Source: a bacterium
GTDB lineage: Bacteria > Bacteroidota > Ignavibacteria > Kapaibacteriales > UBA2268
NCBI GenBank assembly: GCA_024711295.1
Contig: JANJTB010000021.1
Location: forward strand, 62,001-126,000
Direction: 5' to 3'
Length of the DNA stretch: 64,000 nt
In this document: piece by piece, positions 2,617-28,630 of the stretch
How positions within the stretch are numbered: position 1 is the stretch's first letter
How the letters are laid out: the number at the start of each line of letters is the position of its first letter
The notes under the pieces: generated by a model
What the model saw: only the letters and a program-made list of their open reading frames with translations
Told to the model about the DNA's origin: nothing
Database searches by the model: none
Translations under genes and position numbers: made by a program

Positions 2617-5600
2617 TTATTTTAGAATTGTTAACTTTTTTGAAACTGTAGTTGATGGTGTTTTTAATTGATAAATGTAATTCCCGGAACTTAAGAAACT
2701 TGTGTCAAAATCAACTTCATAATCACCGGCTTTTATGAAACCTGAAAATACTGTTTTTGCAACATTTCCGGCTAAGTTATATATAATAATCTCATGAAAT
2801 CCATTCTCAATACTCGAAAATTTAATTTGTGATTTGTCAACAACGGGATTAGGTGTATTTTGCTGAAGCCTCAATCTACCTGAATTACCAACCAACCTCA
2901 ACCCATTTTCTGTACTTTTACTATCTAAAACTATCATTCCATTTATTTCCATAATTCTGGTGTTCTCTGAAATACCCAAAATTTTAGAATTACTTAACTC
3001 AATTGAAGTAGAGTCTTCGTTGCCAAGAGTAACGAGCATTTTCAAAGAAGTAAGAGTACTATCGGTAAAAGGTGCAGGATTAAGTTCAAGCTGAATATAT
3101 CTCTTACCGTTTTTAACATAAGTATCGATATTATCAATTGGCACTAATGTAGTTGAATTAAAACTGATTGTAGTAATATATCCGGTTGCATCAGGTAAAG
3201 GTTTATCTCCATAATTAATCAAATAAATAGGTAAGTTAATTATCTCACCTGGCTTAGAAATTATATGAGGAATTTTTAGCCCTACAGAAGCAGTTCCATC
3301 AATAACAAATTTAACATTAACTGTATCACTTGAGTTACATGAATTTTCAAAAATCAATTGCTCGAAGTAAATTTGATTAAATTCTCCACCATTAAATGTA
3401 ATATAACACTTGGAAATTTCACCCGGCTGGATTATCGCTGGCACTATAGAATCAATAACAACTAAATTTGAATGAGGTAACTCAGACCATTGAAGAATTG
3501 AGTTACCAGTGTTTTGAATATTAACAGAAAATTTTAACTTCTCATGTTGGAACAAATTTGAGGATTCAAATATCTCAGGTTTAACACTAAATGCACTATT
3601 TGCAAAGAATGCAGCTAAAGGATATTTTGTAACTCCATCTATTGAATTTAAAGCATTTGAAGAAATAATCAATGTATCATAATTATTTCCAAAGTTTTGG
3701 GGATCAAACTGTATTTTAATTTCAACTGAATCATCAGGTATGATGATGATATTCTGAGATAAATCATCTAAAACAAAACTTCCGATGTTGCTTTGAATTT
3801 GAACATCGGAAAGGATTAGATTTGTTTTACCGGTATTTTTGATGAACAAAGAAGATTTGGAAATTTCATCACAGTAAACGACAGGGAAATCATTCATATT
3901 GGAGAAATCAATCTGTGATAGATTTGGGCCAACATAAGCAACAATATTAAGCTTTTTATTAATACCGCATGTATCTTCAAAAATATGTTCCAAGTTGTAA
4001 GTACCAAAAGAATCAGCACCTTTGAAAATCACTAAAACTTCTGAAGAATCTCCAGGCAAAGTTGTTTGAGGATAAATGGATTCAATAGTAAAATACTCAT
4101 AATTTACAGGAAACTCCCAAAAAAGTTTTGCATCACCTTTGTTTACAATCCAGAAACGTTTTTCTTCAGATTTATTAACTTCAAACAGATTAAATATTAT
4201 GCTGTTTTTAGATAATTCATAATTAAATTCTCTTTTTGATGCGTTTAATTTGATTATTTTTTCTGAGCTTTTATCCGTATTAACATTTGTTTTGATTATT
4301 AATTCTGATGTAAAATTACCTTTTTCTACGGATTCAAATATTAGCTTAATTGTAGTACTATCGCCGGGGACTAATCTCATTGAAGTATTTGACAAATCTA
4401 AGCTAAATTTGTCCTGTTCAGCAGCAAATATCACATTATTTATCAATAAGTCATCATTTCCTATATTGTAGATAATTATGTCATTTTTGCCTCCGGTTTC
4501 GCAAGTGAATGCTCCAAAATCAATAATCTCATCAACCTGAATTTGAGGACCTGCTCCTCTACCAATAAGTTGAATTAGATCATAGTCTTGCTTTCCATCA
4601 TACAAAATATCAAACATAGCACTTGTCAGATCATACTTATCCGGCTTGAATTTAATATTGAACTTAAATTCCTGAAGTGGATCAATAAAGGTAGGTTGAA
4701 AACCTATAATTTCAAAATTATTATCAGATTTGTTTAAATTAACAATATTTTCAACAAATAGAGATTCGGTGCTTAGGTTGGTTAATGTAATTTCTTTGAC
4801 TGAGTTTTCAGAACCAATTTTAACAATACCGAAATCATAATAAGGTGGAGATACTTGAAGTAATCTATTACTTGTAAAACCAATTAGCTGACATCTAAAT
4901 TCACGCATTCCGGTAACAAAAACTAGCGTATCCAATTTATTTGAAAATGTGGTTGGCGAAAACCTTATTGTTAAGTTCAACCAGTCCTGAGCATCAACTT
5001 CATATGGAAATCTTAAACTGTTGTCTAGTATGAAAAATGATTTACTAGCTCCCCTGATATATATTGTGTCAATACTTATGGCTGTGTTTGTATTATTTGC
5101 AAAAATTTGATTTATAAGAGAGTCCTTGATTGACCCTATCATAACATTTCCAAATACAACACTTTTAAGAGTCACATTTGGATTAATGATGCTCCAGATA
5201 TTATCAGATAAATCCTCCTGTAAAGTAGGTTTATTAAATGGAATATCTTCAGGAGACCATACAAAAACCTCACCCTGGATAGTCGAGGAAGCAACTTTGG
5301 AGCCATCAGCCCGCCAGGCAATTTTATTTACTAGGTTGTTGTGACCCCTAAATACATAATATTTTGAACCTGTTCCAGGTTGCCAAAGAGTTATAGATGA
5401 GTCTGCAGAAGAAGATGTTATGTGTTTAGCGCCGGGGTCCCAAGAAACTACATTTACAGGTTTCAAAAAGTTGTTAAACGAAGTAATGTTAGACAGTGAA
5501 TTAATATCCCATATATTAATGTACTCATTCATTGATGATGTAACAATGAATTTTGAAGTAGGATTAAAGTCTAATGATGTGACCTTTTGGTCACTGACTT

Positions 5601-7575
5601 TGAAACTTTTGACTAAATTTAATCCGTGGTTGTAGATCTTAACCCAACCGTTAGAAAGACTGATTATTAATTCATCACCTATCTTATTCCATAAAATATT
5701 GGTAATTGGTGATTCTTCCTTAATTTCACTTATAATCTCACGTGTTAAATTGTCATATATATATAAATTACCCTCATTGCTTGCTAATGCAATTAAATTA
5801 TTTACAGGATTCCAATCCAGGAGCTCAAGATTATTGTTACCAATTGAAATTTCGAATTCTTCAAACTCATTGTCAGGATTTTTAATTATAATTTTATTTG
5901 AATTATTTACAATGATAGCATATCTTGAAAAATCAATGTTAAAATCAAAATTAAGCAAATCTGGAATATTACCTGAGATCGTTTTTACAGGCTCTCCGTT
6001 TTGAGTATTCCAAAGTCTGATAAAACCATCGGTGCTTGCTGTATATATTTCATTATTGTTGTGTCTCCATATTAAATTTAATATTCTTCCCTGTATACCC
6101 TTTAATGAAATAATATTTTTACTTAAATCAAATAAAGATAAATGTTTTATCCTTAATAAGCAATTTGAATTAGGAGTAAATGGAATTGAAGTCCAAAGAT
6201 ACTTCAAACCTGATGCATTATTAGTAATATTTGTCCAATTATTCCCATTATCAGTTGAGAAATCAATACTTACTGTATCAGTAGGTAACACTCCATCCCA
6301 CTCTATAAGGTAATTTGTACCTACCACAAGTTGTTCTCCACCATTTGGAGAAATAATTCTTAATGTTTTGGGGATAGAATTATTTCTTAAAGAGCCACCG
6401 GACAATCTCAGTTTCTTTTCATCGCAAAAACTTCCTTCAAATACTATCTCTTCATAAACATAATTTGTGTCAAGAGGATTGTATTGAACTCGGATGTTGA
6501 CTGTTTCACCCTCATTTATTTGAATGGGCAAATCAGGTTCAATAATTTTAAATCTACTTGAATTACTGACATTTGAAATTACAATATCATCATTTTTAGC
6601 ACTAAGACGAAAAAGTTGTGTTGAGTTAAATGGCGGTTGAATAAGACCGTAGTAATGAAAATCTTTCTCCACAATTAAACTTGGCAACGCCGTAAAATTT
6701 ATTTCATAAGTGGATGAATCTTTCAAACTCAAGCTAGTAAAATCAAGTAATACTTCTTTGAAATCTGAACAAGTTGTTGACTTATAAACAATATTACTAA
6801 TCTTTTCATATTGAAAGTTCTTTACAAAAGCTCCTAGCTTGTTAAGTAAATGAAATTCATTGTTCGAATAAAATGACATACCATCGTCGATAAATTCACT
6901 AACTAATTTGGATGGTCTGGAATTAATAATAATTGAATGGAAATTTGCACTTATTTTACTTTTTTCAGATTTAATATAAGATATTTCTCCTGATTCAGTA
7001 CCATCAGTAATTAAGATAATATTACAAAGTTTATTGCCAATAATTTTTCTTAGGTTAAATTGATTTTCATTAAATAAAGAATTTAGATCAGCTTTCCCAG
7101 AGAAAATTGGGTTATTTAGATTATTCTTAATTTCATTATAATTTTCAGTAAAATCATTAATTAAAAACAAGTTTTCATTAAATGTTGCTAAGGCTATGCT
7201 CAAATCTCCGAATGAATTATTTTCAATCAGAGTTATTATGGATGGTTTTATAAATTTATCAAATTTGCCTCTGAATAATGAACTGCCATTAAATATAATA
7301 AGCAAGTTATTGCTATAGAATTTGTTCAATAATTCTTCAACGTTAAATTCATTTATTTTTTGATTATTTTCAATTATTTCGAAGGGAAAATTTGATAAAT
7401 CTTGGTATTTATGGTTTTCAGTCAACAAAGTTTCGATACTTACTATAGGGTAATTTTTTGTTTTAACCCCAAAAGAAAACACTTCCGCTGAATAGGTCTC
7501 TTGCAAAGAAAAAAATATTAAGGATAAAAATATACCCATAAAAAATTTTGCAATTTGAGATGAAATATGTCCCAA
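2617..7575 (-). CDS. Exported WD40 / HYDIN-repeat protein with type IX sorting domain
   Basis: A 1652-residue exported protein of unknown function. In order I see: a hydrophobic signal segment (about 9-30); a vWA-like domain (about 86-235) with NIILITDGTESGE but without a clean DxSxS MIDAS motif; an Ig-like domain of the surface-protein type beginning ISPNGGE (about 405-475); WD40-like repeats (about 490-775), with WD-type endings such as GFIRLWN, EYINIWD, SSITLWQ and GEVFVWS; a long run of HYDIN/ASPM (choice-of-anchor D) Ig-like repeats (about 800-1425); a cohesin-like segment (about 1450-1540); and a C-terminal Por sorting domain (about 1577-1652) beginning QNTPNPV and ending KKLTILK. That last domain predicts export by the type IX system and attachment to the cell surface. 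WD40 repeats in a secreted bacterial protein are uncommon. The frame is intact. Confidence 0.88.
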   Translation of the reverse strand: MGHISSQIAKFFMGIFLSLIFFSLQETYSAEVFSFGVKTKNYPIVSIETLLTENHKYQDLSNFPFEIIENNQKINEFNVEELLNKFYSNNLLIIFNGSSLFRGKFDKFIKPSIITLIENNSFGDLSIALATFNENLFLINDFTENYNEIKNNLNNPIFSGKADLNSLFNENQFNLRKIIGNKLCNIILITDGTESGEISYIKSEKSKISANFHSIIINSRPSKLVSEFIDDGMSFYSNNEFHLLNKLGAFVKNFQYEKISNIVYKSTTCSDFKEVLLDFTSLSLKDSSTYEINFTALPSLIVEKDFHYYGLIQPPFNSTQLFRLSAKNDDIVISNVSNSSRFKIIEPDLPIQINEGETVNIRVQYNPLDTNYVYEEIVFEGSFCDEKKLRLSGGSLRNNSIPKTLRIISPNGGEQLVVGTNYLIEWDGVLPTDTVSIDFSTDNGNNWTNITNNASGLKYLWTSIPFTPNSNCLLRIKHLSLFDLSKNIISLKGIQGRILNLIWRHNNNEIYTASTDGFIRLWNTQNGEPVKTISGNIPDLLNFDFNIDFSRYAIIVNNSNKIIIKNPDNEFEEFEISIGNNNLELLDWNPVNNLIALASNEGNLYIYDNLTREIISEIKEESPITNILWNKIGDELIISLSNGWVKIYNHGLNLVKSFKVSDQKVTSLDFNPTSKFIVTSSMNEYINIWDINSLSNITSFNNFLKPVNVVSWDPGAKHITSSSADSSITLWQPGTGSKYYVFRGHNNLVNKIAWRADGSKVASSTIQGEVFVWSPEDIPFNKPTLQEDLSDNIWSIINPNVTLKSVVFGNVMIGSIKDSLINQIFANNTNTAISIDTIYIRGASKSFFILDNSLRFPYEVDAQDWLNLTIRFSPTTFSNKLDTLVFVTGMREFRCQLIGFTSNRLLQVSPPYYDFGIVKIGSENSVKEITLTNLSTESLFVENIVNLNKSDNNFEIIGFQPTFIDPLQEFKFNIKFKPDKYDLTSAMFDILYDGKQDYDLIQLIGRGAGPQIQVDEIIDFGAFTCETGGKNDIIIYNIGNDDLLINNVIFAAEQDKFSLDLSNTSMRLVPGDSTTIKLIFESVEKGNFTSELIIKTNVNTDKSSEKIIKLNASKREFNYELSKNSIIFNLFEVNKSEEKRFWIVNKGDAKLFWEFPVNYEYFTIESIYPQTTLPGDSSEVLVIFKGADSFGTYNLEHIFEDTCGINKKLNIVAYVGPNLSQIDFSNMNDFPVVYCDEISKSSLFIKNTGKTNLILSDVQIQSNIGSFVLDDLSQNIIIIPDDSVEIKIQFDPQNFGNNYDTLIISSNALNSIDGVTKYPLAAFFANSAFSVKPEIFESSNLFQHEKLKFSVNIQNTGNSILQWSELPHSNLVVIDSIVPAIIQPGEISKCYITFNGGEFNQIYFEQLIFENSCNSSDTVNVKFVIDGTASVGLKIPHIISKPGEIINLPIYLINYGDKPLPDATGYITTISFNSTTLVPIDNIDTYVKNGKRYIQLELNPAPFTDSTLTSLKMLVTLGNEDSTSIELSNSKILGISENTRIMEINGMIVLDSKSTENGLRLVGNSGRLRLQQNTPNPVVDKSQIKFSSIENGFHEIIIYNLAGNVAKTVFSGFIKAGDYEVDFDTSFLSSGNYIYQLKTPSTTVSKKLTILK

Positions 7576-18863: not shown

Positions 18864-20801
18864 TTATTTTACAAGCCAAGGTGCTAAATAGCTCGAAGGT
18901 CTCTTTTTAACAGTTGGCGTTGATGGAATGAATTCAATATTTATTTGTTCTGCAACGCCATCTTTTATTTTATACAATAATGATTGATATGGTTTAAATC
19001 TAAGGCTAAGCTCAGTTAACCGTCCTTCAATATTAACTCCCACATAAAAACTATAAGTGCTGTTATTAAATGATTGCCCATATTCCATCGGAAATTTTAT
19101 GCTATTTGAAAGTGGATTTGCAAAAAATATGTAGTAAGTATCTTTATCTTTTCGAGTATAAAATTTTAGTTTATTTTCTGAAACTATAAAAGGTTTTACA
19201 AAAATTGGTACTTGCCTATGCACATTACTATTATCGAGAAGCTTCTCTAATATTTCCTTATACTCCTTTGCACTTACATAACCCGGATGACTTGGAATTT
19301 TCTTGAGGATAATACTCCCTCCTTCATTTGCAATTCTAAGCAATTCCTTAATAGTTGAGTTGCTTACATAATCAGAATTGATGTATACGGCTTCAAATAT
19401 ATTACTTCCGATATGTATTTTACCATTTATTACTTTTGATTTTGTTAAAAAATCATTATTTACCCAACAATTGTTAAACCCTTTCAGTTCATCAGGGAAA
19501 TAAACATACCTCATTTCGTAGTATCCCCAAGCCCATTTAAATTGCAGTTCTTTTGGCATAACTCCTTTTATCCAAGCATCCTCGGTTGGTAAGTACACAG
19601 CAATATTGAAATAAGGATTTCCTAATCGCATATTTGTCTGGACTTTTTCAAGGTAAAAATTAAACTGTTTAATTTCTTTATTTAAAAAAGAATTAGTTCC
19701 AATGTGGGTAGTAGCATAAAAGTTTGTTGAATCTGAATTAGCTTTGTTGTGTGGTTTGCCATGCCAAATAATGTGATTTATTCCGTTAGCAAACAAAGCA
19801 TCTGCTACCAGTTTCAAGTCGGCAGCTTGTTCTTCTCTTAAGTAATCACGAGGCCAACCATAAATACAAGTAAATGTCTCACTTGAAACTATACTTTTGC
19901 CGCTCAAGGCTGCAGCAGATGATGGAATGGCGCAAAACTCAGGCTCGAATAACATTGACTCTCCTTCTGGAATATCAAGTATTGAATAACCTGATATTAA
20001 GTCACAGGGTGCTCCTGATACTTGTCCTCTCGATAACACTCCAGCTGAGTTAAGGGCAGAATCAAAATCTTTATAAAATCGAACAACTTTTTCTGATACG
20101 AGACTCATATAATCAAAAAGTTGCATTTTGTAAGCAGGTCTGTAGATAGAATCCATGAATTTTGTGATATCATAACCATATTTTTTGACAAAATCCTTAT
20201 CAAAGTTGTCGCACCATAATTTTTCGGTTTCTACTTCCCAACTGTCAATAAAAAATGATCTGTCTAGTTTTGATTTTGGTCTTGGAAAAGCTTTCAATAG
20301 TCGGTTAAAATAAGGCAAGTAATTTTTTGGAGTTAAATGATCTATAACATAGCCTACTTTCGGGTATTCCCAGGAAAGTTTAATTTGTTGCCTCCACGTG
20401 GGATCACCAAATTTTTGTGTAGCTTCCTCATACTTCACTTTAGTATCTCCAAAGGGCCATAAGGTACCAAAAGTCATATCACATCCCAACCCTATTGAAT
20501 CTGCATACTTAGCAGTAAAATGAACTATTTTGCTCCATTCTGGACTAAGCCATTCTTGTCTGGGAGTGTAATTTGTGTCACCCGGGTTAAATCTATTCAT
20601 AGGATAAACCCAAGCAAGCTCAACTCCTCCAAATCCATGATCTCTTAACCAATTTAAGTTATATCTGACATCATCCTCGCTGATTTTTGAAGCGAACCAC
20701 CAATATCGTGTATATGGCTTATCAGAGATGTTGTAGCTTTGAGCTAAAATATTATGTGATACTACAATCAATAGTATAAGAAATAGAATTATTTTTTTCA
20801 T
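18864..20801 (-). CDS. GH106-like glycoside hydrolase, exported
   Basis: I start this gene at the ATG at 20799-20801, because it gives a standard signal peptide (MKKIILFLILLIVVSHNILAQ). The open frame extends 21 codons further to 20864, but that would bury the signal. The 645-residue protein resembles glycoside hydrolase family 106 (alpha-L-rhamnosidases and relatives): YTRYWWFASKISEDDV near the mature N terminus, GFGGVELAWVYP, DMTFGTLWPFGD, FFIDSWEVETEKLW, and SSETFTCIYGWP with NGINHIIWHG. Substrate is unproven; rhamnose-bearing glycan is the guess from the family. It is shorter than many GH106 enzymes (around 800-1100 residues), lacking obvious extra beta domains. It lies 75 bases downstream of an outer-membrane barrel gene and may degrade or process surface glycan. 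Confidence 0.82.
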   Translation of the reverse strand: MKKIILFLILLIVVSHNILAQSYNISDKPYTRYWWFASKISEDDVRYNLNWLRDHGFGGVELAWVYPMNRFNPGDTNYTPRQEWLSPEWSKIVHFTAKYADSIGLGCDMTFGTLWPFGDTKVKYEEATQKFGDPTWRQQIKLSWEYPKVGYVIDHLTPKNYLPYFNRLLKAFPRPKSKLDRSFFIDSWEVETEKLWCDNFDKDFVKKYGYDITKFMDSIYRPAYKMQLFDYMSLVSEKVVRFYKDFDSALNSAGVLSRGQVSGAPCDLISGYSILDIPEGESMLFEPEFCAIPSSAAALSGKSIVSSETFTCIYGWPRDYLREEQAADLKLVADALFANGINHIIWHGKPHNKANSDSTNFYATTHIGTNSFLNKEIKQFNFYLEKVQTNMRLGNPYFNIAVYLPTEDAWIKGVMPKELQFKWAWGYYEMRYVYFPDELKGFNNCWVNNDFLTKSKVINGKIHIGSNIFEAVYINSDYVSNSTIKELLRIANEGGSIILKKIPSHPGYVSAKEYKEILEKLLDNSNVHRQVPIFVKPFIVSENKLKFYTRKDKDTYYIFFANPLSNSIKFPMEYGQSFNNSTYSFYVGVNIEGRLTELSLRFKPYQSLLYKIKDGVAEQINIEFIPSTPTVKKRPSSYLAPWLVK

Positions 20802-20876
20802 ACAAAAATTAAGAATATTGTTTATTAAACAAATACTAAAATAAACATAACTTAATAAATGCAATAATGTATTTTA

Positions 20877-21610: not shown

Positions 21611-24600
21611 ATGAAATTTATTGTAACAACATTTCTTTTAATATTTTATTTGCTATCTTTTTCAATTTCCAAAGAAGAGATTTCAATCTCAGGCAATCAA
21701 TATTTTATCAAAAATAATGGACAGATTCAAAATGATGAAGTATTATATTATCTTACCTCAAAAAATCTGAATATCTACTTTCTCAAGGATCGAATTTCAT
21801 ATCAATTAATTAAATCAAGTTTAAATGATTTTGCCCAAGAGTCCGGTAGTTACAGATTTGATCTTAAGTTTAACACCTCAATTTCTACCATAAAAGCTCT
21901 TAAAAATTCAAAAACAAGGTTAAATTATTATAATCCTGATTACCCGGGTGGTCTGATTGATGTTCCAACATTCGAAGAAATTATATATGAAAATATTGTT
22001 GAAGGGATCAATTTAAGTTTTAGATATAATAAAAGTGAGCTTATCTATAATTTTGAAGGAAAGTTGAGCAATTTAAATAAACTTCAACTTGAATTTGATG
22101 GTATAAAATCAAGTGAAATACTAAATAATGAGTTATTTATTAGCACTATTTCAGGCAACCTAATTTTTAAACTTGATAATCAAAATTCAAAGTCGATAAT
22201 TTTGTCAGACAAAAGCAAAGTTAATTTTAATTCAGAGTCTTTTAAAAGCATAACAAAAGAGCAGTTCCAAAATAAAAATCTAACATGGATAACATATTTG
22301 GGAGGATCAAGTTTTGACCATTTGTATTGTATTCATGCTGACGAAAATTCTGATTTGTTGCTCTGTGGGTTAACAAACAGCGCTGATATTCCTACAACTG
22401 TTGGCTCTTTCCAACCACAAAAGAAGGGTAGTGAAGATGCAATTATTGTAAAACTAGATAAAGATTCTAAAATTGACTGGTGTACATACGCAGGAGGAAG
22501 TCAAGCGGACAGAGCAATAAATATTTTCAAAAGGGATGATATAATCTGGGTTTCAGGTGAGTCTCTCAGTAACGATTTCCCGATTACCGCTAATGCACAT
22601 CAAAAGAGTAATGGAGGTGGGTCGGCTGATATATTGATGATGCGTCTAGACAATAAGGGGCATATAATGCACGCAACTTATCATGGAGGAAGTGCTTATG
22701 ATTCATCACCTGATTTAGCTGTTGACAGCAAGCATAATGTTTGGCTCATTGGTAGAACTTTCAGTACAAACTTCCCTACAACTGCAAATGCTCAATACCC
22801 TTTTAAAGGTAATTTTTACGATGCATTTATGGTGTGTTTAGACAAAAATGGGAATTTAAGATATTCTAGTTTTTTCCCTGCTGATCAGGATATTTTTGGA
22901 GAAGGGATTGCAATAGATTCAAACGATAATGTGTGTGTTACAGGCTATACCTTAAGTCAGAATCTTCCTGTAACAAATAATGCCTACCAAAATTCAAAAA
23001 ATAACCAATATGATGCCTATTTAGCAAAATTTAATAACAACGGCAAATTAATTTGGTGTACTTATTTTGGAGGAAATGCCCAGGATTATGGTTCGAATTT
23101 AACTGTTGACCCTTATGGCAATTTCTTTATATTTGGATTTACAAACAGTACAGATTTACCGACGAATGAAAATGTTTATCAAAAAAATATAAAAGGACAG
23201 TTTGACTCATACATCGCGAAATTCAATAATGATGGTGAATTCCAATGGGTATCCTATTTTGGTGGTACAAATCTTGAAGGTATCGGAGAGAGTATTCTAT
23301 ATCAAATAGGCGGAGTTAAGTCGGATAAATATGGAAACATATTAGTTTCGGGACAAACCTCAAGTTCAGATTTCCCAACTACTGCTGATGCATTTCAAAG
23401 TAACTTGAAAGGAAAAACAGATGCATTTATTGCAAAATTTGATGTGAATGGAAAATTGATTTACTCATCTTTTCTGGGCGGTTCAAATAATGACAGAGGT
23501 TATGATGTAGTAATTGATAATCAGGGTTATTTGGTTAATGTAGGCTGGACAGAAAGTTCGGATTTTCCTGTTACAGAAAATGCATATCAAAAAAATTATG
23601 CCGGTGCAATTGATGCATATATATTCAGGACTCGTGAATGTGATGAATTTTATGAATTAGAATTGTCAATGCCAAATGATACAGTATTTCTTGCAGCTAA
23701 AAACAATACAATACCATTGTGGCTAGGAGCAAATGGAAATGATATCTCTTTAAGTAACGCAAACATTAAGCTACGATTCAATGAAAAGTATTTTTCAAAT
23801 TTAACCATAAATGGAGCAATAATAAAAAGTAAATCAAATTTCGATAAATATGTGATTTACGAACTTGAGTTTAATTCTATAAATGTTAGTAATAATAAAG
23901 TTAAAATTTGCGATATAAATTTTGATTCAAAATTACCTTCAGATTTTAAAACTAAGATTGAAATTATAGATTTCAACTGGAATATTGATTGTTCAAATAC
24001 TATAATAAAAGATTCCGAAATTTTGTCAATCTGTAATAGCACAATAAAAACAAAATTATTAATTAAAGATATGAAAATTCCTTCAAAAAAAGAAGTTGAT
24101 ATTCCAATTTATATTGAAACTCTTGATTTAGACAAAATATTTATTAATTACAATAATGTGCTTACTATATCTTACCCTTATGCTAATGCTGAATTATTGA
24201 GTCTGACTAATGGTGTAATACTTTCGAAGACCAAAATAAATGAATTTGAAGAATGCCTTATCAAGATTAATGATGTAAAGATAATTGATAATAGTAATAT
24301 CATCAGCATGTTAAAGTTTCAAATTAATAACTTTGAAAAAACATCATTCACTATTGACATAAAGAACGTTAAATGGTACGAGCCATGTATAGAATCTTCA
24401 CTACAAAAAGGTATCGTAGAAATTGGTTGCGATGAACACGAGTTCAACTTAGTCATCAATCCTAGTGAATTTAGCATTAATGATGGAACTAACAATATTG
24501 ACGTCAACCTAGAAAGAATAAAAGGTAACAATGAAGCTATTAACTTTACGATTAATGAGTTAGTTCTTTCGATTAGTGACTTTATCAAAGTTCTTTCTTT

Positions 24601-25516
24601 TGATGATTTTCAGATTATAAGCACAACCAATACTAATGGATTCAATATTTTTAAATTGAGAAAATCAACTGATTCTTATGATGAAAATAAACAGTTCATT
24701 TCAATCAAATTTAATTTTCTTGAAAACAGCGATAAACCAATTAATTTAAATTTTCAATCTATTCAAATTTCTGAAGATTGTATAACTATAAATCCACATT
24801 TGAAAGAATTTAGTGTAAACTGTTTTAAACCAATCATTTCTTTTAGTCATTCTGATACAATTGTTTCAATAGGTTCTAATCTTGACAGACATATTTACAT
24901 TAATTTAAACAAAAAACTACCGTTCATTGACTCATTAGACCTAAGTTTCAAAATCACTTCAAAATTCAATAATTTGAAGATATTGAATATATCGAATGTA
25001 GATCGTTATGAAGAATTAACAGGTAATTTTCATTCAACATTTCAAATCAGTAAAAGGATCTCTGCAGATCCTACTACAGATTTTATAAAAATTAATATAT
25101 TATCATTGTTGGATACAGCAGACTTTGGATCAATAATAATTTCAGATGTAATTGCTGATTATCAATGTTTAGAATTTGATACCGAACATTTGGGAAAAAT
25201 TGAGTTTGAAGAACTCTGCACAGAAGACATCCGGCATATCAATCTTATAAAAATTAATTCCATTCAGGTATCTCCAAACCCAACATCAGATATGTTAAAT
25301 ATAGTAGTAAAATCAGTTGACAAAGGAGTCATTAAGGTGATTTTATTAAATTCAAATGGTAATATTTGCGATTCAAGAGAATTCAATAATAACTCTACCG
25401 ATCAATTTATTGAATCCATACATATTAATACAAATTATTTAAATTCAGGCACTTATATCATTAAAATGCAAACAGACAAGAATGTTTTATCAAAGAAAAT
25501 AATTATTAACAAATAA
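21611..25516 (+). CDS. SBBP beta-propeller surface protein with four Cys-bounded modules and Por sorting domain
   Basis: A 1301-residue exported protein. A signal peptide (about 1-20) is followed by a conserved N-terminal domain with FIKNNGQ and EGINLSFRYN (about 25-200). Seven SBBP repeats follow; their GG-type anchors fall at residues 231, 295, 359, 423, 487, 551 and 623, a 64-residue period that predicts a seven-bladed propeller. The fourth anchor is degenerate (FFPADQ). Residues about 677-1203 form four ~131-residue beta-rich, cohesin-like modules punctuated by cysteines. Residues about 1215-1301 are a C-terminal Por sorting domain (SPNPTSDMLN to KKIIINK), so the protein should be exported by the type IX system. 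The next gene, 9 bases downstream, is a paralogue of the first 680 residues. Role unknown; adhesion or matrix binding is inferred. Confidence 0.9.
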   Translation: MKFIVTTFLLIFYLLSFSISKEEISISGNQYFIKNNGQIQNDEVLYYLTSKNLNIYFLKDRISYQLIKSSLNDFAQESGSYRFDLKFNTSISTIKALKNSKTRLNYYNPDYPGGLIDVPTFEEIIYENIVEGINLSFRYNKSELIYNFEGKLSNLNKLQLEFDGIKSSEILNNELFISTISGNLIFKLDNQNSKSIILSDKSKVNFNSESFKSITKEQFQNKNLTWITYLGGSSFDHLYCIHADENSDLLLCGLTNSADIPTTVGSFQPQKKGSEDAIIVKLDKDSKIDWCTYAGGSQADRAINIFKRDDIIWVSGESLSNDFPITANAHQKSNGGGSADILMMRLDNKGHIMHATYHGGSAYDSSPDLAVDSKHNVWLIGRTFSTNFPTTANAQYPFKGNFYDAFMVCLDKNGNLRYSSFFPADQDIFGEGIAIDSNDNVCVTGYTLSQNLPVTNNAYQNSKNNQYDAYLAKFNNNGKLIWCTYFGGNAQDYGSNLTVDPYGNFFIFGFTNSTDLPTNENVYQKNIKGQFDSYIAKFNNDGEFQWVSYFGGTNLEGIGESILYQIGGVKSDKYGNILVSGQTSSSDFPTTADAFQSNLKGKTDAFIAKFDVNGKLIYSSFLGGSNNDRGYDVVIDNQGYLVNVGWTESSDFPVTENAYQKNYAGAIDAYIFRTRECDEFYELELSMPNDTVFLAAKNNTIPLWLGANGNDISLSNANIKLRFNEKYFSNLTINGAIIKSKSNFDKYVIYELEFNSINVSNNKVKICDINFDSKLPSDFKTKIEIIDFNWNIDCSNTIIKDSEILSICNSTIKTKLLIKDMKIPSKKEVDIPIYIETLDLDKIFINYNNVLTISYPYANAELLSLTNGVILSKTKINEFEECLIKINDVKIIDNSNIISMLKFQINNFEKTSFTIDIKNVKWYEPCIESSLQKGIVEIGCDEHEFNLVINPSEFSINDGTNNIDVNLERIKGNNEAINFTINELVLSISDFIKVLSFDDFQIISTTNTNGFNIFKLRKSTDSYDENKQFISIKFNFLENSDKPINLNFQSIQISEDCITINPHLKEFSVNCFKPIISFSHSDTIVSIGSNLDRHIYINLNKKLPFIDSLDLSFKITSKFNNLKILNISNVDRYEELTGNFHSTFQISKRISADPTTDFIKINILSLLDTADFGSIIISDVIADYQCLEFDTEHLGKIEFEELCTEDIRHINLIKINSIQVSPNPTSDMLNIVVKSVDKGVIKVILLNSNGNICDSREFNNNSTDQFIESIHINTNYLNSGTYIIKMQTDKNVLSKKIIINK

Positions 25517-25525
25517 GATATAAAT

Positions 25526-28500
25526 ATGAAAAAGGTTTTCTATAGTACTATTATTATTACAATTAGCCTGATAATATTACAGGTCAATTTGATTTATTCT
25601 CTGAATAATTTTAGCCAGGAATTTATTCAAAACAATGGTCAATTAAAAAACTCAAATGGCTCAATCAATGATTACATACAATTTTATCGCCATTTCGATG
25701 ATGTTGCTTATTATTTAACTAACAACAAAATCTGCATTGTTAATAATATTAAAGATGGATCATTCTTTTCAATTGATAATGCAAAAACATTCTCATATAG
25801 ATATGATATTTCTTTTGTAGGATCGAATCCAAATACTTCAATTCAATCATATAAACAAAAACCACATAAACATTATTATTTTCAAAGCAGTACTAAAAGA
25901 ATAGAAGCAGAGTCCTTTGAGAATTTGGTTTGTAGTGATATTTATGAGGGGATTAATATTAAATATCACTCTGTAAAAGACAAATTCAAATATGATTTTA
26001 TAATTAAAGCTGGGCATAATTACAAAAAAATCAGAATGAAATTTGACGGTGTAAACTCATTATATATTTCATCAACCGGTGAATTGATAATAGAAACTCC
26101 TTTTGGAACTTATGCAAAGCCCAAACCACTTGTTTATCAATATGGAAATAATAATCAAATTATTTTTTACGATACCGATTACGATATAGTTAATAATGAA
26201 TTAGGATTCGTAATCAATCAAAACATTCTTACTGACAGAGATTTAATAATTGACCCCGAAATTGGTTTAATAAGTTATTGTGGAGGCGAGAGAGAAGACA
26301 TACTCAATACAGTGAAGCAAGATTACAATGGTGATTATTACATTACCGGATACTCCAGAAGTGATAATTTCCCAGTTACAACTGGAGCTTTGTTCGAACA
26401 ATACAATTCAGGCAATGAAGCAGTCATATTAAAATTCAACTCTAATTGGGAGCCTTTATGGATTTCATACTTTGGAGGTAATGGCAATGATGTATTTATG
26501 GATATTAACATTGGAAGTGATTATATTTGGCTTTCAGGTGAAACAACATCCTACGACTTCCCTGTTTCATTTAATGCATATCAGAATCAATATGCAGGAG
26601 GTTCTGCTGATATTGTTTTAACAAAATTGTCAAAAAATTGTGAATTACTTTATTCTACCTACTTTGGAGCCGGAAACTATGACTCTTCACCTGAAGCTGT
26701 TCTGGACTCTCAGGAAAATTTGTGGTTGACTGGAAGGACAAACAGCAATTTCACAACTACTACTAACGCTGAAGACAAAATAGGTGGTGGATCAGTTTAT
26801 GATGGAATAATTGTTAAATTTGACAAATACGGTGATTTGAAATATTCTTCATATTTATCAACAACGGCAAATACTTACGGTGAAGGTATTGCAATAGATA
26901 AAAATGACAATATATATGTTGTAGGTTATACAGACGGAGAAAATTTACCTAATTTCGACAAAGGTTATTATATGAATTTTTCTGGTAAGTATGATTCGTT
27001 CATAACAAAATTTAATCCTTCAGGATATAGTGAATGGTCAACTTACTTTGGTGGCTCTAAAGAAGATTTTTGTTCAAATATTACTGTTGACGAAAACAAT
27101 AATATATATATATTCGGGCATACCGCAAGTTATGATATCCCTTTGATTGGTAATTCATTTCAAAATAAAAATAACGGCTCATTTGATTCATTCATTGCAA
27201 AACTAAATTCTGATGGAAAACCTTTATGGTCAACATATTTTGGAGGTAATGAGTTTGAAGGTTTCGAAAATTCAATTTTGTATCAACTCGCCGGTATTTC
27301 AGTCAATGGTAACAAACTCGCAGTTGCAGCAAAGACAATAAGTACTGATCTTTATGTAACATCCAACGCATTCCAAAGTAAAAAAAGTAGCCGGTCTGAT
27401 GCATTTTTTGCTGTTTTTAATACAAATAGTGGTATGCTTGAGTATTCTACATATTTTGGTGGAAATGGTGATGAAAGACCTTATGACATTTTAATTGATA
27501 ACAAGGGATATTTAATAAATGTAGGATATACCGGTAGCAGTGATCTACCAACTATGAAAGGTGTGTTTCAGGAAAAGAACGCAGGATCGCTGGACGGCTA
27601 TATATTCGGGACGGTTGCAAATGTATGTAACTCTGTAATTTCGTATCCAACATTTGACAATGTAGATAAAATATTTCTTAATGGTAATGCAATTTATATT
27701 GATGATTATATCAGAATGACAAACAATTATCCTTATCAATCATCATCGTTGTGGTACATTGATAAAATAGGAATAGAAAAAGGATTCGAAACTACTTTTT
27801 CATTCTCTATAAGTGATGCAAAAGATTATGCCGGACATACTGATACACCATATCCCGGTGCAGATGGTTTAGCTTTTGTAATTCAGAACAATTCTCTGAC
27901 CACTACAGGTGATGCCGGTGGTAGCATAGGCTATGAGGGAATTCCGTCTGCAATTGCAGTTGAATATGATATGTATTATAATGGAGAAACAAATATCAAA
28001 GACCCTAATGGTAATCACATTGCCGTATTTTCGGGAGGTAAATCAGCAATAACAGCAAACCATAGAAGTACCCATCTAATAGATTCAACAAGTGAAATAT
28101 TTGATTTTGATGTAGATGGTAGTATTTACTACTCAAAAATTAAGTACGACGGCACTATTAGTAAACTTTACATTTATTTAGCTCAAAACCCATTCAAACT
28201 TAATGATCCAATTTTGGAGATAGAAGATTTTGATATAAAAAAAATCCTCGAACTTGGAATCAACCCTTCTGTCTGGGTAGGATTTACATCAGCAACTGGC
28301 GGTTCTTATCAAAAGCACAATATTCATAGTTGGGAGTTATGCTCATTTGATGATAATCCTGCGAACGTAAATGATAATTTAGATCAATGCGAATTTACAA
28401 TTACCCCAAATCCTGTTGATGATTTAATGCATATATACACAGATAGGCAATATGCCAATTTACAAATTGAAATTTATAATATACTTGGAACTAAATTAAT

Positions 28501-28630
28501 AGAGCTACCCCGTGCATATTCAGATAGTGATTTGATTACTATCAATACTAATGGATTAGCAAGGGGTGTGTATATTCTAAAAATATACAACTCAGATATG
28601 GTTAAATCATTGAAATTTATAAAGTATTAA
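25526..28630 (+). CDS. SBBP beta-propeller protein with L-type lectin domain and Por sorting domain
   Basis: A 1034-residue exported protein, evident paralogue of its upstream neighbour. It has a signal peptide (about 1-25), the same N-terminal domain (FIQNNGQ, EGINIKYHSV), and seven SBBP units with anchors at 253, 317, 381, 445, 509, 573 and 645, the same 64-residue spacing and final 72 as in the neighbour; the fourth anchor is again degenerate. The C-terminal part differs: residues about 702-940 form an L-type (legume-like) lectin fold with GADGLAFVIQ, AVEYDMYYN and GNHIAVF, which carry the family's metal and sugar-site residues. A Por sorting domain (about 956-1034, TPNPVDD to KSLKFIKY) ends the protein. 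Carbohydrate binding at the cell surface is likely; the sugar is unknown. Confidence 0.9.
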   Translation: MKKVFYSTIIITISLIILQVNLIYSLNNFSQEFIQNNGQLKNSNGSINDYIQFYRHFDDVAYYLTNNKICIVNNIKDGSFFSIDNAKTFSYRYDISFVGSNPNTSIQSYKQKPHKHYYFQSSTKRIEAESFENLVCSDIYEGINIKYHSVKDKFKYDFIIKAGHNYKKIRMKFDGVNSLYISSTGELIIETPFGTYAKPKPLVYQYGNNNQIIFYDTDYDIVNNELGFVINQNILTDRDLIIDPEIGLISYCGGEREDILNTVKQDYNGDYYITGYSRSDNFPVTTGALFEQYNSGNEAVILKFNSNWEPLWISYFGGNGNDVFMDINIGSDYIWLSGETTSYDFPVSFNAYQNQYAGGSADIVLTKLSKNCELLYSTYFGAGNYDSSPEAVLDSQENLWLTGRTNSNFTTTTNAEDKIGGGSVYDGIIVKFDKYGDLKYSSYLSTTANTYGEGIAIDKNDNIYVVGYTDGENLPNFDKGYYMNFSGKYDSFITKFNPSGYSEWSTYFGGSKEDFCSNITVDENNNIYIFGHTASYDIPLIGNSFQNKNNGSFDSFIAKLNSDGKPLWSTYFGGNEFEGFENSILYQLAGISVNGNKLAVAAKTISTDLYVTSNAFQSKKSSRSDAFFAVFNTNSGMLEYSTYFGGNGDERPYDILIDNKGYLINVGYTGSSDLPTMKGVFQEKNAGSLDGYIFGTVANVCNSVISYPTFDNVDKIFLNGNAIYIDDYIRMTNNYPYQSSSLWYIDKIGIEKGFETTFSFSISDAKDYAGHTDTPYPGADGLAFVIQNNSLTTTGDAGGSIGYEGIPSAIAVEYDMYYNGETNIKDPNGNHIAVFSGGKSAITANHRSTHLIDSTSEIFDFDVDGSIYYSKIKYDGTISKLYIYLAQNPFKLNDPILEIEDFDIKKILELGINPSVWVGFTSATGGSYQKHNIHSWELCSFDDNPANVNDNLDQCEFTITPNPVDDLMHIYTDRQYANLQIEIYNILGTKLIELPRAYSDSDLITINTNGLARGVYILKIYNSDMVKSLKFIKY

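Follow-up and report, generated by a model that had tools for sequence, protein, structure and literature searches.

In a stretch of 64,000 nucleotides (nt) from a bacterium of the Kapaibacteriales (contig JANJTB010000021.1), which we call the window, two neighbouring genes, P1 and P2, lie on the forward strand with a gap of only 9 nt. Each is predicted to encode a DUF7948 domain, a propeller of the SBBP family and a C-terminal Por sorting domain, and the tail that lies between propeller and sorting domain is an L-type lectin domain in P2 and an array of four modules in P1. The explanation that we favour, and that we hold to be probable as a whole, is that P1 and P2 are old tandem duplicates, that both would be surface propellers exported by the type IX secretion system (T9SS), that one tail would be a lectin and the other a stalk, and that parts have been exchanged at both ends of such proteins. 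The parts are of known kinds and their combination is new, and one widespread module among them has no curated name.

The gene pair and its propellers

The N-termini of both proteins start with Lys and are hydrophobic, which makes them candidate Sec signal peptides, and a helix is seen there in the P2 model. DUF7948 has three matches in the whole 3.45-Mb genome, of which P1 and P2 are two. The SBBP family (PF06739) scores 67.3 bits in P1 and 91.2 bits in P2 (Pfam gathering cut-off 20.5). As a first-pass annotation of this DNA had claimed, both proteins end in a Por sorting domain, which is above the cut-off in Pfam (Table 1) and also with TIGR04183 of NCBIfam (30.3 bits in P1 and 44.5 bits in P2; cut-off 23). 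A gene of the SprA family (TIGR04189), SprA being the only T9SS gene sought, was found in the genome at 737.2 bits (cut-off 200).

By BLASTP, 256 of 682 aligned columns are identical between P1 and P2 (38%), and the propellers share 42.7% identity. Within the genome P1 scores 401 bits to P2 and 57.6 bits to the next best protein. The two propellers are sisters with support of 100/94 in both a 32-row and a 61-row tree, the latter holding 61 of 121 homologues, picked by score and coverage, with three added. The next row beside them is a lectin-tailed protein of another genus, from genome G008 (L081, the same as L146), with support of 87/63 and 92/70, which is not strong. The GG of the fourth SBBP anchor is lost in both P1 and P2, is intact in L081 and L083, and is GA in L082. 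At fourfold silent sites P1 and P2 agree in 35% (75 sites) against 35% expected from composition. These sites are saturated, therefore the duplication is old, and a recent duplication was rejected. Judged by their sequences, P1 and P2 are old tandem duplicates, and the tandem duplication of the shared N-terminal part and propeller that the first-pass annotation had proposed stands with this qualification of age. The check that it had set, in which the N-terminal halves should be closer to each other than to distant SBBP proteins, comes out in its favour by the tree and only narrowly so by score, as the P1 propeller reaches 365 bits (41.5% identity) to a G008 protein and 348 bits (42.7%) to P2.

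Two genomes of the same genus gave no P1 match at an expect value (E) of 1e-50, and among 149 genomes (E<=1e-50) no match apart from P1 itself extends beyond residue 847. A viral or plasmid origin found no support: the propeller alignment matched no relative in viral contigs, and P1 DNA found no match in plasmids by megablast. Propellers of this family were also observed in Heimdallarchaeota and Hodarchaeota records (L141, L147, L150, L152, L153, L155, L157, L158, L164, and L172), 32-37% identical to P1.

The SBBP anchors fall at residues 231, 295, 359, 423, 487, 551, and 623 in P1 and at 253, 317, 381, 445, 509, 573, and 645 in P2, and the fourth is degenerate in both (FFPADQ in P1, YLSTTA in P2). 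On re-reading of the sequences, the anchor residues, spacings and degenerate fourth anchor given in the first-pass annotation proved exact. The identical register had also been singled out there, and this part fell. In 121 unique homologues (127 matches before identical copies were removed) the interval medians are 64, 65, 64, 64, 64, and 65 (n 102-120 per interval), so a period of ~64 residues is the norm of the SBBP family and is not particular to the window pair. The equal register follows from homology and is thus not separate evidence of duplication; as evidence of a recent one it was rejected on the same ground. A longer last interval (69-73) is found in 30 of 111 homologues, mostly the nearest, Kapabacteria-group rows, and among the 95 homologues with all six intervals measured the exact register of five times 64 followed by 72 is seen in the window pair only.

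Structure prediction was run on P2 with AlphaFold, from an alignment of P2 with 22 relatives and the first (N-terminal) half of P1. The model has a mean predicted local distance difference test (pLDDT) of 81.9 and a predicted template modelling score (pTM) of 0.56; this pTM does not fix the mutual arrangement of the domains, a point against the explanation that we favour. Between residues 248 and 697 it contains 28 strands grouped as seven blades of four, and its propeller (247-700) superposes on CylK (7ron) with Z 48.7 and 1.7 Å over 381 residues at 26% identity; the next structural matches are YncE and WD40 proteins with Z about 32. As modelled, P2 has the closed seven-bladed SBBP propeller that the first-pass annotation had expected. 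The P1 propeller, which matches CylK by sequence with E 1e-19 (phmmer), would likewise be seven-bladed, given its 43% identity to P2. An excerpt of the CylK paper (PMC8916777) describes the solved CylK propeller as seven-bladed with Ca2+ at the blade junctions.

The lectin tail and the module tail

The tails of P1 and P2 are non-homologous when compared with each other. That of P2 was called an L-type lectin domain in the first-pass annotation, and this is borne out by Lectin_L-type_dom (PF18483) at 98.6 bits (gathering cut-off 78.3), by similarity to legume lectins both in sequence and in fold (Foldseek, which also finds 7elv), and by the metal motif E.D.Y.N...D....H at residues 813-831. We take the motif residues to be Mn/Ca ligands, by analogy with concanavalin A. 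Of 12 lectin tails, 8 have the strict motif, that of P2 among them; in three of the other four Tyr/Phe is replaced by Trp, and the fourth has a shorter loop. It is plausible that the lectin was the ancestral tail and that P1 may have lost it, which would fit the propeller tree. In the lectin tree, however, the lectins of P2 and G008 do not fall together, and the branching there is poorly supported.

In P1 the four Cys-bounded modules noticed in the first-pass annotation (M1 to M4) were found again, with Cys 677, 808, 940, 1071, and 1203 spaced by 131/132/131/132 residues. The last four of these are each preceded by another Cys, 14, 14, 14, and 17 residues earlier, and three more Cys of the tail (767, 882, and 1253) fall outside the pattern. 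By BLAST the four modules show no significant similarity among themselves (best E 0.71). Searched against 391 genomes, the P1 tail gave only weak matches, which at E<=0.01 lie in 8 genomes other than its own (the best at 2.9e-5), and two of the weak matches (L122 and L123) carry a similar module directly before an apparent sorting domain. An iterated profile search of the 1,742 open reading frames (ORFs) in the loci fetched around homologues yielded 26 modules, 126-139 residues long and including the four of P1, and in 25 of the 26 the last residue is Cys.

It was found that a profile of this family (A4, 24 rows) matches cohesins of the PDB, namely 3ul4 (4.3e-6), 1g1k (6.5e-4), and 2vn5 (9.4e-4); an earlier 4-row module profile gave nothing informative against the PDB. 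A profile built free of P1 scores 48.5 bits on M1 and 29.0 bits on M2, with 0 of 200 shuffles as high for either. The M1 model (pLDDT 81.3, pTM 0.75) was compared with known structures by VIA-align 2, and cohesins take each of the first 23 ranks and 26 of the first 28 (Z 9.4-8.5, root mean square deviation 2.6-3.9 Å), the other two being chitinase chains of C. perfringens. M1 and M2 belong to a cohesin-fold-like family, with the fold taken from the M1 model, and M3 and M4 are probably of the same kind, as their Cys spacing, length and place suggest. The Pfam Cohesin family (PF00963) itself has no match in P1 at E<=10 and none in M1 at E<=1; it matches 3 of the 24 family members at E<1 (best 8.4e-5), and its score in L095, 18.5 bits, is below the cut-off of 24.1. 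The copies of Pfam and NCBIfam that were searched give the module no curated name; by this we do not claim that it is unpublished.

Where the module sits elsewhere can suggest its role. In 22 ORFs other than P1 that carry it (E<1e-3) there is one copy each, and in all 21 ORFs that are complete at the C-terminus 96-101 residues separate the end of this single module from the C-terminus, which places it immediately ahead of the sorting domain; M4 of P1, at 98 residues, falls within the same range. In the own genome the A4 profile gives 20 matches in 17 open frames, and only P1 has more than one copy; the 16 other frames have a single module (E<=0.01), one of them being a frame of 103 amino acids (aa) at 0.008. 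The same profile matches all 80 genomes searched, which are the own genome and those of its genus, family and order, with 1-40 matches each among the matches listed. That all 21 have it as a single copy ahead of the sorting domain is more in keeping with a spacer than with a specific binder, and from this position the module is more likely a collar or stalk by the sorting domain, multiplied to four in P1, than another binding end.

Several points weigh against this reading of the P1 tail. Regarding the fold, the A4 profile includes the four P1 modules, with a risk of circularity, and one of its rows (window:2818-3201) is shifted by 34 residues (2920-3303 in a later profile, A8). The P1-free profile is weak on M3 (5.5 bits; 2 of 200 shuffles as high) and on M4 (5.4 bits; 3 of 200). 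Integrin beta-sandwiches follow the cohesin matches of M1 at Z 8.3 and 7.7, which is a thin margin, and Z 7-8 is the typical best of VIA-align for models of proteins that have no clear relatives. In Foldseek the M1 model has no match at E<=0.001, and its first ranks (E 2.8e-3 or worse) are a mixture of chains of diphtheria toxin, carbohydrate-binding modules, integrins and cohesins, which we read as the common beta-sandwich arrangement. Regarding the role, it is drawn solely from position; the 22 ORFs are a biased sample, taken from loci that were fetched for similarity and including the near-copies L123, L125, and L126; and weak module matches in L106 and L136 (E about 1e-3) and in L168 lie at the very C-terminus of the ORF and not ahead of a sorting domain.

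Three other genes with a cohesin-like module were observed in passing. The reverse-strand gene at 2617-7575 of the window encodes a protein of 1652 aa that has four stretches of the choice-of-anchor-D type and a Por sorting domain, with a single cohesin-like module ahead of its end. The third DUF7948 protein of the genome (L101 2570-7720, G000:C26), a frame of 1717 aa, has such a module before its end, and its neighbour (L101 7769-11380) also has one.

Exchange of parts and proposed roles

One question that is raised by this pair is whether it is the tail or the propeller that varies. In the fetched loci there are 15 pairs of neighbouring propeller genes on the same strand (<9 kb apart); three with a short or cut tail were dropped, and the remaining 12, with long tails on both sides, come from 9 loci and were compared with the sorting domain excluded from the tail. 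The tail is more alike than the propeller in 8 of the 12 pairs (5 of 9 loci): 93-95% against 41-42% identity in L197, 82-86% against 41-45% in L183, 64% against 32% in L187, 57% against 43% in L163, and 99.6% against 75% in L087. In 7 of these 8 pairs the tail also agrees more than the propeller at silent sites, L187 being the exception. The tails are homologous and less alike than the propellers in two pairs (L171 and L148). They are unlike in the last two, the window pair and the L117 pair of genome G026, both of which combine a lectin with a cohesin-like tail; the L117 propellers are 57% identical, and the tails share only their first 93 residues, at 30%.

Further cases come from the trees. 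The propellers of L092, with a lectin tail, and L095, with a tail of HYDIN-like and cohesin-like parts, are sisters with support of 100/100 from two genera. When the tails are given four labels, one of which ('cut') is no trait, these need 21 changes on the tree of 61 rows against a shuffled mean of 25.9, with 0 of 200 shuffles as low. Tails are thus partly inherited with the propeller and their exchange is far from free, which must be held against an explanation by exchange of parts. The lectins borne by SBBP propellers do not form a single group: they require 6 label changes in the lectin tree, of which supported branches force 2. One of the 6 is possibly an artefact, since L090_6929, labelled 'other N-part', shares its DNA in part with the propeller ORF L090_7780, read in a different frame.

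Exchange is also seen at the other end. Two neighbours in L117 have very similar lectins, parted by very short branches, behind a WD40-type and a 58-residue-period SBBP-like propeller, and a lectin and Por tail of similar kind stands behind IgGFc_binding domains (L083 10987-14106, L115, and L116) and behind N-terminal parts with VWA and WD40. Our Pfam tally covered 98 of the 102 tails of at least 60 aa, with L150, L198, and two L117 tails left out. This lineage mixes parts at both ends. It was also observed that the L117 locus (G026:C36 1-18000) is an array in which three of four proteins have a VWA match and HYDIN-like domains, the propellers being of the WD40 or the 58-residue-period SBBP-like type, and that the IgGFc_binding-lectin gene of L083 adjoins an SBBP-lectin gene.

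In the explanation that we favour, both proteins are most likely surface-displayed recognition proteins. The T9SS would export P1 and P2, which would be displayed on the cell surface or released from it. DUF7948 together with the propeller may form the exposed head, made rigid through Ca2+ between the blades as in CylK. In P2 the lectin may add glycan binding, and the propeller would be expected to bind some other target, while in P1 the array of modules may serve as a stalk, stiffened by disulfides, which would keep the propeller at a greater distance from the cell. That the tails differ would be due to exchange of parts at both ends, namely propeller type, N-terminal domain, lectin, and HYDIN-like or cohesin-like modules, and not to a fixed scaffold that gained new binding ends only.

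Another option, which we put forward only tentatively, is that the propeller is a variable recognition head on a near-constant tail (lectin, PKD-like or cohesin-like, with the sorting domain) in tandem arrays that would act as a system of surface-receptor diversification, so that the window pair would be rare in having exchanged its tail too. Tails might then be homogenised, possibly by gene conversion, while propellers (SBBP, 58-residue SBBP-like, and WD40) diverge or are exchanged.

The opposite option is the one of the first-pass annotation, in which a constant propeller scaffold was diversified by swapping the C-terminal binding modules and each tail would bind a different target. Part of it stood, as the swap of unlike tails on propellers 43% identical in the window pair recurs between lectin and cohesin-like tails in the L117 pair and between the sister propellers of L092 and L095. 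The rest did not, as the propeller varies more than the tail in the 8 pairs given above, the module type of P1 is single before the sorting domain in the complete ORFs elsewhere and looks in P1 like an expanded stalk, not clearly a binding end, and lectins occur also behind unrelated N-terminal parts. One scaffold with a swapped binding end describes a minority of the pairs, and as an account of P1 and P2 we consider it doubtful.

That the propellers are secreted enzymes related to CylK, with tails that merely anchor or target them, is very unlikely in our view. CylK is the closest solved structure to the propeller, and its key residues are absent from most of its homologues, which 'may catalyze other reactions' (PMC8916777). 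The active site of CylK, however, lies between its two domains according to the same paper, whereas the phmmer match to CylK covers the propeller only (P1 402-647; best stretch in P2 387-577); DUF7948 is N-terminal, with no search made of its fold alone. In pairwise alignment CylK Tyr473 is replaced by T603 in P1 and S624 in P2, and CylK Arg105 is in its N-terminal domain, outside the alignment with P1 and P2. The apparently different partner domain and the replaced Tyr473 make a CylK-like enzyme unlikely. Least of all do we expect P1 to be a scaffoldin-like protein whose modules would bind dockerin-bearing proteins and assemble them at the surface: the cohesin fold of the M1 model, the distant cohesin signal, four modules in tandem as in scaffoldins, and a 469-aa Dockerin_1 protein with a Por-like end by eye (L209 841-2250, G000:C11; 28.0 bits, cut-off 22.9) speak for it, and against it are that the genome has no other dockerin match at E<=0.001, that Pfam Cohesin fails on P1 and on all but 3 of the 24 family members at the thresholds given above, and that the module is single in the 16 other frames of the genome.

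Surroundings and known systems

The positions of the features in the window are collected in Table 1.

Table 1. Features of the P1 and P2 genes, in window coordinates.
Feature	Position	Strand	Residues	Basis or content
P1 ORF	21611-25516	+	1301 aa	hydrophobic N-terminus, DUF7948, SBBP propeller, four Cys-bounded modules, Por sorting domain
P1 DUF7948	21704-22168	+	32-186	Pfam 63.7 bits, cut-off 27
P1 SBBP propeller	22277-23635	+	223-675	Pfam; fold by 42.7% identity to P2 propeller
P1 module M1, cohesin-fold-like	23639-24034	+	677-808	P1-free profile and model
P1 module M2, cohesin-fold-like	24032-24430	+	808-940	P1-free profile
P1 module M3, probably same kind as M1/M2	24428-24823	+	940-1071	Cys spacing, weak profile score
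P1 module M4, probably same kind as M1/M2	24821-25219	+	1071-1203	Cys spacing, position, weak profile score
P1 Por_Secre_tail	25271-25507	+	1221-1299	Pfam 36.6 bits, cut-off 27
P2 ORF	25526-28630	+	1034 aa	hydrophobic N-terminus, DUF7948, SBBP propeller, L-type lectin, Por sorting domain
P2 DUF7948	25622-26260	+	33-245	Pfam 123.9 bits, cut-off 27
P2 seven-bladed SBBP propeller (model)	26264-27616	+	247-697	AlphaFold model, CylK superposition
P2 L-type (legume) lectin domain	27638-28372	+	705-949	Pfam 98.6 bits, own profile, Foldseek
P2 lectin metal-site motif EYDMYYN...DPNGNH	27962-28018	+	813-831	GADG at 778
P2 Por_Secre_tail	28406-28612	+	961-1029	Pfam 41.3 bits, cut-off 27

A flanking LVIVD gene has homologues in 6 of 8 genomes searched. 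In six stretches of 16-19 kb fetched around these homologues, none of the 12 other window genes tested was found (tblastn, E 1e-8), and a link of the pair with the LVIVD gene is not supported. Also near the pair, at 18864-20804 on the reverse strand, is a gene similar to glycoside hydrolase family 106 (the alpha-L-rhamnosidase family; 61.4 bits, cut-off 29).

Our analysis suggests a likely fold and position for a cohesin-like module that has been matched in all 80 genomes searched with its profile and is unnamed in the databases used. It also presents the propeller surface proteins of this lineage as assembled from exchangeable parts. If it is true that the arrays vary the propeller on a constant tail, to which 8 of the 12 pairs (5 of 9 loci) point, then the propeller would be the place to seek the ligand, and the annotation 'surface protein' becomes testable.

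Among known systems, the solved SBBP example is CylK (7RON, 7FH6), which shares the repeat and the seven-bladed propeller with P1 and P2; in these, DUF7948 takes the place of the Ca-binding domain of CylK, Tyr473 is not kept, and tail domains and a T9SS sorting domain are added. The SBBP lipoproteins of the LipL53 family of Leptospira (NF047494) match in the propeller region with 75.5 and 64.3 bits, far below the cut-off of 400. The P2 architecture of DUF7948, SBBP, L-type lectin and Por is found in the G008 protein and in two proteins of genome G020, Candidatus Kapaibacterium sp. SKW166 (L083, the same as L130, and L082, the same as L131); these are 32-34% identical to P2 over its length, and none matches the P1 tail. 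With L-type lectins such as those of Methanocaldococcus jannaschii (7ELV) and Pterocarpus angolensis, P2 has the fold and the metal-ligand motif in common, but its lectin is fused behind a propeller and before a T9SS sorting domain. The cohesins of cellulosome scaffoldins (3UL4, 1G1K, and 1ANU) are like the predicted M1 fold and have distant profile similarity to the module family, whereas P1 is beyond the reach of Pfam Cohesin, the genome has one dockerin match, and the module elsewhere is single before a T9SS sorting domain and, in 25 of 26 cases, ends in Cys.

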